Shown here piece after piece: positions 53,742 through 62,595 of a stretch of 64,000 nucleotides of DNA. The first letter of the stretch is position 1. Every line of letters begins with the position of its first letter. A program made the translations under genes and the position numbers. The notes beneath the pieces are model-generated. The model had not been told where the DNA came from and ran no database searches. It saw nothing but the letters and a program-made list of their open reading frames with translations. The stretch spans positions 62,001 to 126,000 of the forward strand of contig VHCL01000002.1 of NCBI GenBank assembly GCA_016871725.1. The letters are read 5' to 3'. Source of the stretch: Verrucomicrobiota bacterium. Lineage in GTDB: Bacteria; Verrucomicrobiota; Verrucomicrobiia; Opitutales; UBA953.

Positions 53742-53863
53742 GGGGGACGACTAAGACGACCGCCCCGCCGAGGGCGAGAAAAGTCCTCCGCCGGCCCCCG
53801 GATGATTGTCTCGCCCTGCGGGTCAAAAGCCTCAAAGGGTAGGGCGTGCCCTCCGAAGGACCC

Positions 53864-54568
53864 ATGCGCATCCACAAGTTCCTCGCCCAGGCGGGGGTCT
53901 GCTCCCGTCGCGAGGCGGAGCGGCTGGTCGCCGCGGGGGCCGTGAAGATCAACGGGCAGGTCGCCGTCACCGGCCAGCCGGTCGACCCGGCCGTGGACAC
54001 GGTCATCTGTCAGGGCCAGCACATCAAACCCCTGAGCCGGACGGTCGTGCTGATGATGAACAAGCCGCGCGGCTACCTCTGCACCAATGACGACTCGCAC
54101 GGCGGCCAGACCGTCTTCGACATGGTGCCGCCCGAGTATGGCTCGCTGCGGCTCTTCTGCGTGGGGCGTCTCGACAAGGATTCCGAAGGCCTGCTCATCC
54201 TGACCAACGACGGCGAACTCGCCAACAAGGTCATGCATCCTTCCGGCGGCGTGATCAAACGCTACGAGATCACCTTGAACCGCGACTATGATCCGGCCCT
54301 GACCCCGCGCCTGCTCAAGGGCGCCGTGGAGGACGGCGAGCACCTGCGCCTCAAGAAGCTCATCCGCCACCCGGACGATCCGACGCAGCTCGAGGTCCAT
54401 CTCGACCAAGGGCGTAAGCGCGAGATCCGCCGCCTCTTCGAGATCTTCGGCTTCCATGTGAAGACCCTGCGTCGTTTCCAGATCGGCGGCCTGGTCCTGC
54501 GCAAGATGCCCTTGGGCGATTGCCGACCGCTTTCCCGCAAGGAAATCGACATGATTTTCGAGAACTGA
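53864..54568 (+). CDS. rRNA pseudouridine synthase, RsuA/RluB type
   Basis: A 234-residue enzyme. The N-terminal S4 RNA-binding domain is HKFLAQAGVCSRREAERLV. The catalytic domain has VLMMNKPRGYLCTN and the active aspartate in FCVGRLDKDSEGLLILTNDG. QGRKREIRRLFEIFGFHVKT is the conserved end. ATG 53864 has a GAAGGA site upstream; a GTG at 53846 is less likely. The target is probably 16S or 23S rRNA; RsuA and RluB cannot be separated by eye. Confidence 0.92.
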   Translation: MRIHKFLAQAGVCSRREAERLVAAGAVKINGQVAVTGQPVDPAVDTVICQGQHIKPLSRTVVLMMNKPRGYLCTNDDSHGGQTVFDMVPPEYGSLRLFCVGRLDKDSEGLLILTNDGELANKVMHPSGGVIKRYEITLNRDYDPALTPRLLKGAVEDGEHLRLKKLIRHPDDPTQLEVHLDQGRKREIRRLFEIFGFHVKTLRRFQIGGLVLRKMPLGDCRPLSRKEIDMIFEN

Positions 54569-54638: not shown

Positions 54639-54710
54639 GTGTATCCCTCGCGTCTGTTCGCCTTGTTGCTCTGCCTGACTTCCCTTTGGGCCGGTCCGGA
54701 GACCTCGCTC
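54639..54710 (+). pseudogene. Out-of-frame signal peptide of the first GH16-like gene
   Basis: From GTG 54639 this frame encodes M-YPSRLFALLLCLTSLWA-GPETSL, a convincing Sec signal peptide with a W-A cleavage site. The other three GH16-like paralogues have such a peptide just before their mature domain. Here it lies one base out of frame with that domain, which resumes at 54710 (HKLVWSDEF). One missing base would join the two. Either the gene is inactivated, or a base was lost in sequencing/assembly. Confidence 0.55.
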
Positions 54711-55345
54711 ACAAGCTCGTCTGGTCCGACGAGTTCAATGACAAGGAACTCGACAAGAAGAAGTGGAACATCGCCAACGCCGACGGCGTCCGCATCGTCG
54801 ACGGTCAGCTTTCGCTCGAGATCACCCCGGGCTCCAAGCCGATGTTCTGGCGTGGTTCGAGCGTCAACACCCGGGGTAAGTACAGCTCCAAGGCCGGTTA
54901 CATCGAGGCCTCGATCATGTTCGTCCAGACCGGCGGACACGGCTGCGGTTTCGGCATCGGCAACGAAGACGAACGCCCGCCCTCCGCGGGCATGGGCTTC
55001 AGCAACGGCGGCGGCAACACCGTCGGCCTGGGGCTTTATGTCCGGAACGAAGACCGGGGTCGCTCGTTGAACCCCAAGGAGAATCCGGTCCCCCGGGATG
55101 ACTCCTATTCCAAGAAGTTCCACCGCTTCGGTTTCCAGTGGGGGCCGAACGACTACCGCTGGTACGTGGACGGCCGGCTGGCCTACACGATCCGGATTTC
55201 CCCCACCATCCCGGCCACCCCTAAGCCGATGTACATCTCCCTGGACCATAACCGGCTGCCCGAGGCCGGCCTGCTCAAAAGCTTCAAAGACCCGAAAATG
55301 GGGCCTGAACCGATGCGCGTCGACTGGGTCAAGGTCTACCAGTGA
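54686..55345 (+). CDS. GH16-like jelly-roll protein 1 (subfamily A, 5' frameshift suspected)
   Basis: The in-frame part has 219 residues with only a TTG as start. LVWSDEFNDKELDKKKWNI is the canonical GH16 N-terminal motif. KAGYIEASIMFVQ corresponds to the Y-G-x-x-E-A-R-I strand. KKFHRFGFQWGPNDYRWYVD corresponds to the F-H-x-Y-x-x-x-W segment, and MRVDWVKVYQ is the family end. The acidic catalytic motif E-x-D-x-x-E is absent: the aligned segment reads SAGMGFSNGG. It shares EAGLLKSF.DPKMGPEPM with paralogue 2. The missing in-frame signal peptide is discussed in the adjacent entry. Confidence 0.7.
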   Translation: MGRSGDLAHKLVWSDEFNDKELDKKKWNIANADGVRIVDGQLSLEITPGSKPMFWRGSSVNTRGKYSSKAGYIEASIMFVQTGGHGCGFGIGNEDERPPSAGMGFSNGGGNTVGLGLYVRNEDRGRSLNPKENPVPRDDSYSKKFHRFGFQWGPNDYRWYVDGRLAYTIRISPTIPATPKPMYISLDHNRLPEAGLLKSFKDPKMGPEPMRVDWVKVYQ

Positions 55346-55401
55346 GCCGCCCGGACTTGCTTCCCCTCGGACCCCGGATTAACCTGAGACATTCCCCTTT
55401 C

Positions 55402-56097
55402 ATGAAAGCCCTCCCGCTTTTCTCCCTCCTCGTCGCCCTGTCGTTGGGCGCCGCTCCCAATACCGGCCTGAAGCCGGTCTGGGAGGATAACTTCGACGCC
55501 AAGGAGCTCGACAAGACCAAGTGGAACGCCGGCGGCCAGGCCCGCATCGTCGACGGCAAGCTCCAGATCGAGACGACCCCCAAGGACAAGGCCGGCTTCT
55601 GGAACGGAAGCCATGCGCATACGATCGGCAAGTTCTCCTACGGCCAGGGCTACTTCGAGGCCTCCATCCGCGCCGTGCAGACCAAGAACCGCGGTTGGAC
55701 GGTCTTCGGCATCCGCAATCAGAACATGGAGAAGGTCCCCGCCGCCTCGATGTATTTCGTCTTCACCGGGGCCGACCGCATCGAGCCGACCCTCAACATC
55801 GTCGACGAATCCGGCTCCCATCGCCTCGCGCCGAAGGAGCGGGTCATAGCGATGGACGGCGGCAAGTCCTACAAGAAGTTCCTCACCTACGGACTCCAGT
55901 GGAACGCGACGTCCTACATGTGGTACGTCGAAGGTCGCCTGGTCCATAAGCTCGCGCGCCCGATCCCGAAGGAGCCCATGAGCATCGAATTCCACCAGTC
56001 GCTGCCGGAAGGCGGCCTGCTCAAGGACTTCATGAACCCGAAGATGGGTCCCGAGCCGATGCAGATCGACTGGGTCAAGGTCTTCAAGATTCCCTGA
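55402..56097 (+). CDS. GH16-like exported protein 2 (subfamily A)
   Basis: A 231-residue protein from ATG 55402. Signal peptide about 1-18 (MKALPLFSLLVALSLGAA). The mature part starts PVWEDNFDAKELDKTKWN. GQGYFEASIRAVQTKNRGW follows, then KKFLTYGLQWNATSYMWYVE and the end MQIDWVKVFKIP. The stretch where active GH16 enzymes have E-x-D-x-x-E reads ASMYFVFTG. It is therefore predicted non-hydrolytic; glycan binding is inference. It lies 56 bp after paralogue 1. Confidence 0.8.
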   Translation: MKALPLFSLLVALSLGAAPNTGLKPVWEDNFDAKELDKTKWNAGGQARIVDGKLQIETTPKDKAGFWNGSHAHTIGKFSYGQGYFEASIRAVQTKNRGWTVFGIRNQNMEKVPAASMYFVFTGADRIEPTLNIVDESGSHRLAPKERVIAMDGGKSYKKFLTYGLQWNATSYMWYVEGRLVHKLARPIPKEPMSIEFHQSLPEGGLLKDFMNPKMGPEPMQIDWVKVFKIP

Positions 56098-56122
56098 GCC
56101 TCGGATTTCGCCTACCCATCCC

Positions 56123-56815
56123 ATGAAAAACCTCCTCAGCCTCCTCGCCCTGACGGCCACCCTGAGCGCCGTCAACCCGGCTTCGAACATGAAGCTGGCC
56201 TTCTCCGATGAGTTCGACGGTCCGGCCCTCGACGCCTCCAAGTGGTCCGTCTACGGCGAGCCGACCGCGATGTCCTTCGTGACCGTCGGCAAGTCCAAGG
56301 CCCTCCGCATCACGCTGATGAAGCGCGAGGACATGATCCAGACCAACGGCATCCGCAGCAAGCATGAGCAGGTCCGCGGTTATTTCGAGGCGTCCATCCG
56401 CATGAACGCCAATCCCGGCCACACCGGCAACATGTCCATCCGCGGGAAGGACGACAAGGTGGTGCCTTATATCCTCGCGCTCTGGGAGGGCACCGGCGAC
56501 GACTATCTGCAACCTTGGGCCCGTTATCTTGACGACAAGGGGCAGCATGACCTGCGCTCCACCGAGGGAGGCAAGAAGATCCTCAAAGGCGGCGAGCCTT
56601 CCAAGAAGTTCAACACCTACGGCCTCCTCTGGACCGAGAAGGGCTTCGCCTGGTTCGTGAACGGCAAGCAGATCCACAAGGTCGACCGCATCTCGATCAC
56701 CGAGCCGATGAACGTCCAGTTCTCGCACCGCTGCGGCGAGTGGGAGCGCCCGAAGCTCGTCCTGAAGGACCTGCCGGACGACGTCGACATCGACTGGGTC
56801 AAGGTCTGGAAGTGA
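56123..56815 (+). CDS. GH16-like exported protein 3 (subfamily B)
   Basis: A 230-residue protein. Signal peptide about 1-16 (MKNLLSLLALTATLSA). LAFSDEFDGPALDASKWSVY, VRGYFEASIRMNANPGHTGN, KKFNTYGLLWTEKGFAWFVN and DVDIDWVKVWK give the GH16-like layout. The catalytic segment reads PYILALWEGTG, without the acidic triad at the expected spacing. It shares RPKLVLKDLPDDVD with paralogue 4, which defines subfamily B. The spacing to its neighbours is 25 bp and 5 bp. Confidence 0.8.
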   Translation: MKNLLSLLALTATLSAVNPASNMKLAFSDEFDGPALDASKWSVYGEPTAMSFVTVGKSKALRITLMKREDMIQTNGIRSKHEQVRGYFEASIRMNANPGHTGNMSIRGKDDKVVPYILALWEGTGDDYLQPWARYLDDKGQHDLRSTEGGKKILKGGEPSKKFNTYGLLWTEKGFAWFVNGKQIHKVDRISITEPMNVQFSHRCGEWERPKLVLKDLPDDVDIDWVKVWK

Positions 56816-56820
56816 TCCGC

Positions 56821-57510
56821 ATGCGTCTCCTCTCCTTCCTCTTCCTGTCCGTGCTCCCGGCCTTCGCCGCGGACCCCTCGGTCGGCAAGAAGCTCGTCTT
56901 CTCCGACGACTTCGACGGCGACAAGATCGACGAGACCAAGTGGAGCGTCCTCGGCGCCCGCGAAGTCTTCACCTTCGTCAAGGTCGGCAAGGGAGGCGCC
57001 CTGCGGATCGGGCTCAAGATGAAGGAGGACATGATCCAGACCCACACGCTCTCCACGCGCGGCAAGTTCAGTCAGCAGTTCGGCTACTTCGAGGTCTCCA
57101 TGCGCATGCATGCCGGCGAAGGCCATGCCGGGGCCTTTCGCCTCTCGACCGACGACGACAAGTCGCCGCCCATCATCACCACCTCGTTCCATGGCACCGG
57201 CAAGGAGCGCGTCAGCCCCTGGGCCCGGGCCGTGCTCGAGTCGGGCGCGCAGGACTTCCGGCCCGACAAGGCGATCGGCAAGTTCACGGACATCTCCAAG
57301 AAGTTCCATACCTACGGCATCCTCTGGAACGAGAAGGGCTTCACCTGGTACCTCGACGGAAAGGCCGTCCACAAACTGGAGCGCAAGGAGTTCGTCCGCC
57401 CCATGTCGCTCACCCTGACCCATCGCATCGAGGAGCAGGACCGTCCGAAGCTGGTGCTCAAGAGCCTCCCGGACGACGTCGACGTCGACTGGGTGAAGGT
57501 CTGGAAGTAA
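56821..57510 (+). CDS. GH16-like exported protein 4 (subfamily B)
   Basis: A 229-residue protein from ATG 56821. Signal peptide about 1-17 (MRLLSFLFLSVLPAFAA). LVFSDDFDGDKIDETKWSVL, QFGYFEVSMRMHAGEGHAGA, KKFHTYGILWNEKGFTWYLD and DVDVDWVKVWK are GH16 landmarks. The catalytic region reads PPIITTSFHG in place of an E-I-D-I-x-E type motif. It is the most similar of the set to paralogue 3 and lies 5 bp after it. It could be a lectin-like binder or a member of a neighbouring concanavalin-fold family. Confidence 0.8.
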   Translation: MRLLSFLFLSVLPAFAADPSVGKKLVFSDDFDGDKIDETKWSVLGAREVFTFVKVGKGGALRIGLKMKEDMIQTHTLSTRGKFSQQFGYFEVSMRMHAGEGHAGAFRLSTDDDKSPPIITTSFHGTGKERVSPWARAVLESGAQDFRPDKAIGKFTDISKKFHTYGILWNEKGFTWYLDGKAVHKLERKEFVRPMSLTLTHRIEEQDRPKLVLKSLPDDVDVDWVKVWK

Positions 57511-57537
57511 GCCCGCCTCCAAAAGAGGTTTGCATCA

Positions 57538-57569
57538 GTACCCCGCTGGGCATCCTGCGGGGTACTTTC
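57538..57569 (+). promoter_or_regulatory. Strong hairpin touching the reductase start codon
   Basis: GTACCCCGC (57538-57546) pairs perfectly with GCGGGGTAC (57557-57565) around a 10-nt loop, followed by TTTC and then ATG at 57570. It can act as a terminator for the GH16-like genes. It also leaves no room for a free ribosome site before the reductase. Translation control or a leaderless start is possible. Confidence 0.55.
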
Positions 57570-58718
57570 ATGTCCGCTCCTTACGACAAGAACAACCCGT
57601 TCCCGGCCCGCCTCGTCGACCGTCGTCGCCTGAGCTCGCCGGCCAGCCAGAAGGACACGCAGCACTTCTCGGTCTCCCTCGCCGGCAGCGGCCTGACCTA
57701 CAAGTGCGGCGACAGCCTCGGGGTCTTCCCGACCAATAATCCGAAGGCCGTGGCGGCCTTGCTCCAGGCCGCCGGCTTCACGGGCGACGAACCGGTGACC
57801 ATCCCGAAGGACGCCGCCCCGATCGCGCTCCGCCAGGCGCTCTCCACCCGCCTAGCCCTCAACGGCCCGACCTACAAGTTCGCCCAGCTCCTCCACGACC
57901 GCGCGACGGACGCCGCCGACAAGGCCCGCCTCGCCGCCGCCATCGGCGAAGCCGACCCGGAGAAGAAGAAGGCCTGGATGGAACAGCGCGAGTTCCTTGA
58001 CCTCTTCCTGGAGAATCCCTCCGCCCGTCCGTCCGCGCAGGAAGTCATCGAACTCATGCGCAAGCTGATGCCGCGCCTGTATTCGATCTCATCCGCGCCT
58101 TCGAAGTATCCGCAGGAGATCCACCTGACCGTCGCCGTCGTGCGTTACGAGACCAACGGCCGCCCGCGCGAAGGCGTCTGCTCCAGCTACCTCGCCGACC
58201 GCGCCCGGATGAACGAGCCCGACCTCCCGGTCTTCGTGGCGGAGTCGCACTTCGGCCTGCCGGCCGACGACAATGTCCCCGTCATCATGGTCGGACCCGG
58301 CACCGGCGTCGCGCCGTTCCGCAGCTTCGTCATGGACCGTGCCACCCGTGGCGCGAAGGGCCCGAACTGGCTTTTCTTCGGCGACCAGCGCAAGGATCAC
58401 GATTTCCTCTACGCCGACGAGTGGGCGGAGTATCTCAGGTCCGGCGCGCTCACGCGCCTCGACACCGCCTTCTCCCGTGACCAGGCCGCCAAGGTCTACG
58501 TCCAGGACCGCATGCGCGAGAACGCCGCCGAGCTCTGGAAGTGGATCCAGCAGGGCGCTTATTTCTACGTCTGCGGCGACGCCAAGCGCATGGCCAAGGA
58601 CGTCGACGCGGCGCTCCACGCCATCGTGGCCGAGCAGGGCGGGATGACGCCCGAGGCCGCCGTGGAGTGGGTGAAGCAGTTCAAGAAGGACGGCCGCTAC
58701 CAGCGCGACGTCTATTGA
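57570..58718 (+). CDS. CysJ-like FAD/NADPH reductase without flavodoxin domain
   Basis: A 382-residue protein matching the C-terminal two thirds of sulfite reductase flavoprotein CysJ. The FAD-binding part has LMPRLYSISSAPSKYPQEIH (R-x-Y-S) and GVCSSYLAD. The NADPH part has VPVIMVGPGTGVAPFRSF and YFYVCGDAKRMAKDVDAAL, ending in GRYQRDVY as in E. coli CysJ. The FMN flavodoxin domain is absent, so it would need a separate electron acceptor. No cysI or cysH is in the window. ATG 57570 sits directly after a hairpin. Confidence 0.87.
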   Translation: MSAPYDKNNPFPARLVDRRRLSSPASQKDTQHFSVSLAGSGLTYKCGDSLGVFPTNNPKAVAALLQAAGFTGDEPVTIPKDAAPIALRQALSTRLALNGPTYKFAQLLHDRATDAADKARLAAAIGEADPEKKKAWMEQREFLDLFLENPSARPSAQEVIELMRKLMPRLYSISSAPSKYPQEIHLTVAVVRYETNGRPREGVCSSYLADRARMNEPDLPVFVAESHFGLPADDNVPVIMVGPGTGVAPFRSFVMDRATRGAKGPNWLFFGDQRKDHDFLYADEWAEYLRSGALTRLDTAFSRDQAAKVYVQDRMRENAAELWKWIQQGAYFYVCGDAKRMAKDVDAALHAIVAEQGGMTPEAAVEWVKQFKKDGRYQRDVY

Positions 58719-61167: not shown

Positions 61168-61911
61168 ATGCCTACCCTCATGGCCCCCCGCTTCCTCCTG
61201 CTCGCGTTCGGCGTCCTGACGTCCCTCGGGGTCTGGGCCCAGACCTCGGCCCCGCCCGCCCCGCCGCCCACCGTGACGGTCCGCACGACCGTCTCGCACC
61301 TCGACCCGAAGACGGGCAAGTCCGACGTGATGTCGGCGCCTTCCGTCTCCGTGCTCTCCGGCTCCGAGGCGCGCGTCTCGGTCGCCGGCCGCCCTGACCC
61401 CAAGGATCCGAAGGGCAAGCCGGAGTCCTCGATGGACCTGGTCATCTCCCCGACCGTCCAGCCCGACGGGATGCTCAGCATCTCGGTCCGCGTCTCGATC
61501 AGCCACAAGGCGGAGGTCGTCGACCCGAAGGACGCCAAGCGCGAACGGAAGCGCGAATCCAAGGCCCATGACGGCTCGCTGGTCTTCTACTCGGTGCTCG
61601 CGAAGGAAGGTCTGTTCTCCATCCAGGACAGCCGCAGCGCCCGCCGCTGGTATAAGCTCGGCGCGGTCGTCGAGGGTTGGAAACTCGATGCCTTCGACGT
61701 CGAGACGAACGTGCTCACGGTCTCCCAAGGCGCGACCCACCAGGAACTCCATCTCTACAAGTCCTCCATCGAAGCCTCCGCCAGCGAACTGAGCACGGTC
61801 GTGACCGTCCGCCCCGGCGAGACCGCCAAGGTGCCCGGCGTCGGGGGCCTCGAGCTTTCCGTCAGCGGTACGGTGTCCGCCACGCCGGTCGCCGCGCCGG
61901 CCCCCCGCTAA
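61168..61911 (+). CDS. Exported secretin-like protein 1
   Basis: A 247-residue protein with a signal peptide (about 1-24, ending GVWAQ). The N-terminal half (MSAPSVSVLSGSEARVSVAG, then LVISPTVQPDGMLSISVRV) resembles the beta-domain segments of type II/III secretins. The C-terminal half (GLFSIQDSRSARRWYKLGAV and GWKLDAFDVETNVLTVSQG) resembles the small domain of GspC/PilP. A pore is unlikely at this size. Both halves recur in the next gene, 3 bp downstream. No other secretion genes are near. The resemblance is by eye; the function is unknown. Confidence 0.7.
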   Translation: MPTLMAPRFLLLAFGVLTSLGVWAQTSAPPAPPPTVTVRTTVSHLDPKTGKSDVMSAPSVSVLSGSEARVSVAGRPDPKDPKGKPESSMDLVISPTVQPDGMLSISVRVSISHKAEVVDPKDAKRERKRESKAHDGSLVFYSVLAKEGLFSIQDSRSARRWYKLGAVVEGWKLDAFDVETNVLTVSQGATHQELHLYKSSIEASASELSTVVTVRPGETAKVPGVGGLELSVSGTVSATPVAAPAPR

Positions 61912-61914
61912 GCC

Positions 61915-62595
61915 ATGCTGCGTCCGCTCCTCGCCGTCCTGCTGGTTTCCTCAGCCTTCGCGGCCGAGGAAGCCGTGCCGACCCACCTGAAGGTGAAGGC
62001 GACGTTCACGCGCCCCGACAAGGACGGCAAACCGGAGGTCTACGCCGAACCTTCCGTCATCACGGTCGACGGCAAGCAGACGACCATCCGCGTGGGCTCG
62101 GCCGATGAGGGCGTGGTCTTCACGGTCACCCCGAAGGTCAATAAGGATGGCACGCTCACGCTCGAAGCCGTCGCCGAGTCCCGCGAGGCCGCGCCTGAGC
62201 CGGTAGCTCCTCCGCCGGCCTCGGGTGCGTCTGTCGCTCCGGCCCGCGCCAAGAGCAACCTGCCTTTCTTCCATGGCGTGCTGACCAAGGACAAGCTGTT
62301 CTCGATCGAGGACTCCACGGGCAAGCGCCAGTGGGTCCCGCTGGGTCGCCGCATCGACGGCTGGACGTTGAAGTCCTACGACGAGAAGCGCGAGGCGCTC
62401 ACGCTCTCCCGACTCGGTCAGTCGGTCGAACTGGTCCTGCACAAGGCGGTCATTCTCGACGCCCCGGCTCCGCAGGTCGCGATCTCGCGCTCGAATACGA
62501 CGATCACGGTCAAGCCGGGTCAAAAGACGCTCCTCGGCGGCGCCGGCGGACGGACGATCGCGCTCGAGGCCGAGATCCTGGACGTCTCGAAGTGA
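61915..62595 (+). CDS. Exported secretin-like protein 2 (paralogue of 1)
   Basis: A 226-residue protein with a signal peptide (about 1-16, MLRPLLAVLLVSSAFA). The first half has AEPSVITVDGKQTTIRVGS and VFTVTPKVNKDGTLTLEAV. A proline-rich linker (PEPVAPPPASGASVAPA) leads to KLFSIEDSTGKRQWVPLGRR and DGWTLKSYDEKREALTLSR, parallel to the previous protein. This is a tandem duplication that has since diverged. Role unknown. Confidence 0.7.
   Translation: MLRPLLAVLLVSSAFAAEEAVPTHLKVKATFTRPDKDGKPEVYAEPSVITVDGKQTTIRVGSADEGVVFTVTPKVNKDGTLTLEAVAESREAAPEPVAPPPASGASVAPARAKSNLPFFHGVLTKDKLFSIEDSTGKRQWVPLGRRIDGWTLKSYDEKREALTLSRLGQSVELVLHKAVILDAPAPQVAISRSNTTITVKPGQKTLLGGAGGRTIALEAEILDVSK

Follow-up and report, generated by a model that had tools for sequence, protein, structure and literature searches.

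What is the role of four short, adjacent genes of a familiar glycanase fold lodged among housekeeping genes in a freshwater Verrucomicrobiota genome, and are their products glycanases at all? The window (the whole stretch of 64,000 nucleotides analysed here, from contig VHCL01000002.1 of assembly GCA_016871725.1) carries these genes at 54639-57510, a region that the initial annotation had read as four tandem genes for exported GH16-like proteins, arranged as two pairs and presumed to be differently tuned glycan binders of the surface or periplasm. The four tandem plus-strand genes are indeed present, and g2, g3 and g4 are each read in an uninterrupted frame that includes a Sec-type signal peptide, but g1 does not stand as a single open frame in the window, where its frames are split. 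The array genes and their immediate neighbours are as follows:

53846-54568, + strand: RluB-like pseudouridine synthase, left neighbour, outside the system (Pfam PF00849 and S4; synteny)
54639-55345, + strand: g1, type A1 GH16-fold protein with a GTG start (Pfam score, frame comparison with sisters, dN/dS of the body)
55402-56097, + strand: g2, type A2 GH16-fold exported protein (Pfam, AlphaFold2, Foldseek)
56123-56815, + strand: g3, type B1 GH16-fold exported protein (Pfam, AlphaFold2, Foldseek)
56821-57510, + strand: g4, type B3 GH16-fold exported protein (Pfam, residues at the catalytic positions)
57570-58718, + strand: FAD/NAD-binding reductase of the sulfite-reductase flavoprotein type, right neighbour, outside the system (PF00667 and PF00175; synteny)

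The array starts 70 nt after rluB and ends 59 nt before the flavoprotein reductase gene; its genes are separated by 56 nt (g1/g2), 25 nt (g2/g3) and 5 nt (g3/g4) and are probably co-transcribed. Their products are single-domain proteins of ~230 residues each (~210 when mature) that comprise the GH16 domain alone, without an extra N-terminal region or a glucan-binding domain. The export signals claimed for the quartet are present as Sec-type signal peptides; lipobox-like matches occur in just three array members and no anchor was seen, and the proteins are likely periplasmic or extracellular. The shared landmarks and two-pair structure are likewise borne out, with 47% identity between g1 and g2, 50% between g3 and g4, and ~25-35% between pairs, and with the pair signatures DPKMGPEPM (g1/g2) and RPKLVLK.LPDDVD (g3/g4) present in the sequence. 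Two further observations concern the surroundings of the array. The leader before the flavoprotein gene (57511-57572) is strongly conserved in the subclade of the window, where it includes a hairpin (AGTACCCCGC...GCGGGGTACT), and its segment TTGCATCCTGCGG is kept in more distant members; it is possibly that gene's own promoter or regulatory leader. Further along, at 61168-62595, a second tandem pair seems to be present: two neighbouring genes of like layout for exported proteins of 247 and 226 aa, which weakly resemble the secretin domain (PF00263, 0.0017 and 2.5e-6).

In g1, the signal peptide (VYPSRLFALLLCLTSLWAGPETS) is read in the frame of 54639 and the body in another frame, which is open from 54620 and has its first TTG at 54686. 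Compared with sister species, in which the counterpart is one continuous GTG-started gene, g1 has two extra nucleotides near 54710-54713, just past the signal peptide (within 54705-54715), the site reading CTCACAAG in the window and CTCAAG, CTCAGG or CTCAAA in relatives. The g1 body has a dN/dS of ~0.07-0.10 against sister species, and the frame shift is therefore either a recent mutation or an assembly error. Separately, g1 (54686-55345) has a dS of 0.83-1.76 against sister species, clearly more than its array partners and the neighbours, and recombination or conversion may have affected this gene.

Structurally, all four genes scored above the Pfam gathering cut-off of 22 for PF00722 (g1 30.5, g2 29.1, g3 36.2 and g4 56 bits), which sustains the GH16 affinity proposed at the outset and excludes four unrelated families. 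Across the wider set, PF00722 was matched by 83 of 84 diverse array members (E ≤0.01; best 3e-15), and the array profile matched the ULam111 laminarinase 5wut (E 2e-20) as well as lichenases. AlphaFold2 models of g2 (pLDDT 94.3, pTM 0.90) and g3 (pLDDT 95.2, pTM 0.91), searched with Foldseek, returned the GH16 fold, with GH16 laminarinases as the best matches of g2 and GH16 enzymes as those of g3 (TM ~0.7-0.8); the matches listed for the two were GH16-type laminarinases, lichenases, carrageenases and porphyranases, and close relatives. The array proteins are thus predicted, with high confidence, to adopt a beta-jelly-roll fold like that of GH16 laminarinases and lichenases. PF06439 (3-keto-disaccharide hydrolase, formerly DUF1080) is a related jelly-roll family, but its matches were much weaker, occurring in 10 of the 84 members with a best E of 8e-5, and membership of it was dropped in favour of the stronger and nearly universal PF00722 match.

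Catalytically, GH16 enzymes carry the motif ExDx(x)E (PMC6827312), and this motif is found in none of the 107 near-complete array members; a reading as ordinary GH16 glycanases was rejected on that ground. Because a MAFFT alignment against intact relatives was gapped at the motif, scoring relied on the HMMER alignment, which sets the lichenase strand PWVEVDIEVLG against the array strand PsasllfegtG without gaps, and on both spacings (ExDxE and ExDxxE); whichever spacing is used, the nucleophile Glu is missing in 99 of 107 members. At the three E/D/E positions, the window's proteins have G/G/S (g1), S/Y/V (g2), L/L/E (g3) and T/S/H (g4), and across the members these residues are largely class-specific, being mostly GGS for g1, LLE or NLE for g3, and TSH for g4. 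The A2 class is highly variable there, which fits either diversification or relaxed constraint. The array proteins have likewise lost WPAFW, a segment present in active GH16 enzymes, so that binding could have been lost as well. Two of the 107 members, both of type A (G005 and G019; the second type A gene of L055 and L056), read GELFFE, with both catalytic Glu but no Asp, and have possibly retained or regained activity.

In the same genome, the two GH16 genes outside the array keep the motif (EIDIME and EIDILE), as do nine stand-alone GH16 relatives of ~250-385 residues from the genus and family, and on these sequences the motif loss is confined to the array clade, save for one case. That exception is a non-array GH16 relative (L069; G034 C192, 2589-3344) with a degenerate motif, GFNIFEAF, in which catalytic loss may have occurred a second time.

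Genomically, the order folD-rluB-[array]-flavoprotein-fabG-acpP-fabF is invariant, with rluB and the flavoprotein gene flanking the array wherever a contig covers the slot, and folD, fabG and fabF present where the contig reaches them. These flanks are housekeeping genes and include no adjacent glycan-utilisation genes, so the locus gives no clue to a ligand; a SusC/D-type polysaccharide utilisation locus was excluded, as the flanks, in the loci that cover them, are folD, rluB, the flavoprotein gene, fabG, acpP and fabF and hold none of the transporter, binding and enzyme genes of such a locus. The 33 complete slots contained AABB (12), AB (8), AABBB (5), B (3), ABBB with a fusion (1) or nothing (4), with A genes upstream of B genes without exception. 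In the ABBB slot (G022), the second gene is an A-B fusion of 413 residues, and this minus-strand frame (L037; C358, 1858-3099), part type A and part type B, is a natural fusion. The four slots without array genes and two of the three with B genes alone fall in one clade of the neighbour-gene tree, and the genomes with an empty slot, where sizes were listed, measure 1.3-1.5 Mb; array loss coincides with genome reduction.

Array homologues were found in 35 of 57 relatives searched, nearly all of one genus, and among 273 genomes sampled evenly across the order strong matches were confined to that genus, scores outside it falling to the level of ordinary GH16 domains. An assembly oddity or single-genome array was excluded, the same slot being filled in most genomes of the genus, and the conserved system suggested initially holds on this count as well as on that of common family. 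The named carriers are metagenome-assembled genomes, many lake-derived, filed under Opitutae or Verrucomicrobiota, and the genus is apparently GTDB UBA953, a planktonic freshwater member of the Opitutales that has been counted among freshwater genome-reduced genera (PMC11039613) and found in Lake Erie (PMC12697132). Neither of these papers, both of which mention UBA953, mentions the array, and literature searches on UBA953, bacterial dead GH16 proteins and freshwater Verrucomicrobia with GH16 found no description of it.

Evolutionarily, the 107 members fall, in a midpoint-rooted tree, into 48 type A and 59 type B sequences, and either clade shows lineage-specific duplications of its own, in agreement with the within-type duplication first suggested by the A-A-B-B order. 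The g1 and g2 types are well-supported classes, and a second set of A pairs, from other lineages, forms its own clade. Grouping the first A copies together, or the second copies together, was rejected (p-AU 0.010 and 0.002, somewhat optimistic values given that the groups were defined after viewing the first tree), which tells against a single old A duplication common to all, and A genes must thus have duplicated twice or more, unless the copies were made alike by gene conversion. The neighbour-gene tree keeps the two lineages that carry the second A-pair set apart, so losses, conversion or transfer also contributed to the A history. In comparisons with six sister species, simple Nei-Gojobori counts gave a dN/dS of 0.07-0.29 for array genes versus 0.02-0.11 for neighbours, with array gene dN generally several-fold above that of neighbouring genes and no gene-wide positive selection in the array genes. 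This purifying selection shows that the array genes are functional, and they evolve faster than their neighbours.

Taken as a whole, we consider the array to be, probably, a lineage-specific tandem set of glycan-binding pseudoenzymes that have the GH16 fold and are exported. Binders are preferred over enzymes because the catalytic motif is absent from 107 of 107 members, and to this extent the initial glycan-binder reading stands, while binding itself is what we infer from sequence, predicted fold and precedent. Our confidence is moderate because the WPAFW segment is lost and the neighbours are uninformative, both of which count against binding. Under this reading, an ancestral GH16 glycanase gene in the ancestor of the genus would have lost ExDx(x)E, become established in the slot flanked by rluB and the flavoprotein gene, and split into types A and B, with in-type duplication following in several lineages. 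The proteins retain the predicted beta-jelly-roll and a Sec-type export signal, and their old substrate cleft would hold poly- or oligosaccharide chains without cleaving them, on a cleft floor that would differ by paralogue. Paralogues may accordingly differ in glycan preference, a possibility suggested by the way residues at the former catalytic positions vary with class, and the role could be capture, tethering or sensing of lake glycans or of envelope self-glycans.

A structural or envelope-packing role, in which the jelly-roll would serve as a rigid protein-protein or self-glycan module with no environmental ligand, strikes us as unlikely: it would suit the fact that the catalytic motif has been lost together with WPAFW, and also the fixed housekeeping neighbourhood without utilisation genes, but a copy number of 0 to 5 and the disappearance of the array from the smallest genomes would be odd for a core part, and the class-specific residues of the former cleft point more naturally to ligand specificity. 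More improbable still would be enzymes of changed mechanism, either one-Glu lyases or transferases or proteins acting on 3-keto-glycosides as PF06439 does. Of 102 aligned members, 50 retain the acid/base Glu, especially the B1, B2 and single-B proteins, and together with the two type A members that keep both Glu this speaks for such chemistry and counts against a pure binding reading, so that Glu-retaining members could have an altered chemistry; the weak PF06439 matches (10/84, best 8e-5) point the same way. Against this, the PF00722 profile is hit by almost the entire set, and with better scores (best 3e-15); tandem paralogues carry different residues at the three positions, which leaves no common new triad in view; and the B3 and A1 classes as a rule have no acidic residue at any of the three.

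Decay of the array, with redundant enzyme copies being lost, would account for the frameshift in g1 and for the small genomes with B-only and empty slots. Orthologues are nevertheless intact, with a dN/dS of 0.07-0.29 that extends to the frameshifted g1 body, and larger genomes show repeated duplication, not attrition; for the genus, decay is largely refuted by purifying selection and seems very improbable to us. Within the preferred reading of glycan-binding pseudoenzymes, a more ambitious version is tentative and rather doubtful, namely that the array is a bacterial glycan-recognition repertoire of copy-variable secreted receptors that differ in their cleft floor, expanded independently in several lineages, and serve to tell algal or bacterial polysaccharides apart. 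As part of the same speculative version, such a repertoire might be a bacterial counterpart of the insect beta-glucan recognition proteins.

Comparison with known systems places the array close to familiar proteins. With the bacterial GH16 laminarinases and lichenases (PF00722; ULam111 5wut, Fibrobacter lichenase 1zm1 and ZgLamC 4crq) it has in common the jelly-roll, predicted here, and the N-terminal DxF(D/N)...D..KW, the GYxE strand, W...WYVDG and the C-terminal DWVKVW/Y, whereas ExDx(x)E and WPAFW are gone, the proteins are single-domain without binding modules, and the genes stand in tandem in a housekeeping slot. The nearest intact homologues by profile score, among those read, are stand-alone GH16 genes from within the genus and family (G000 C39 and C7; G036 C175; G163 C11; G128 C61), which differ from the array in keeping ExDx(x)E, in lying outside the slot and in having longer insertions around the catalytic strand. 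GH16 has been described as including noncatalytic binding functions, with loss of catalytic residues in ~0.7-1% of GH16 outside the animal and fungal GH16_4 (PMC6827312), and catalytically dead GH16 proteins of insects are taken as beta-glucan binders (PMC6403176). Like the insect beta-1,3-glucan recognition proteins or GNBPs (GH16_4), compared here by description, the array has a GH16 domain without catalytic residues; the insect proteins are animal, serve in immunity and have a further N-terminal region or a carbohydrate recognition domain, whereas the array proteins are bacterial, single-domain and tandem. The precedent would be one of likeness in function, not of family membership.

In this sense the array is a little-known variation on a known noncatalytic GH16 kind, a bacterial noncatalytic GH16 family that is fixed at a single locus throughout a freshwater genus and has undergone repeated amplification. 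Annotation pipelines would label its genes glycanases, and the polysaccharide-degrading capacity of these lake bacteria would thereby be overstated. If the proteins do bind glycans, they would provide small binders of one domain each, naturally diversified among paralogues, and an example of the passage from enzyme fold to lectin.
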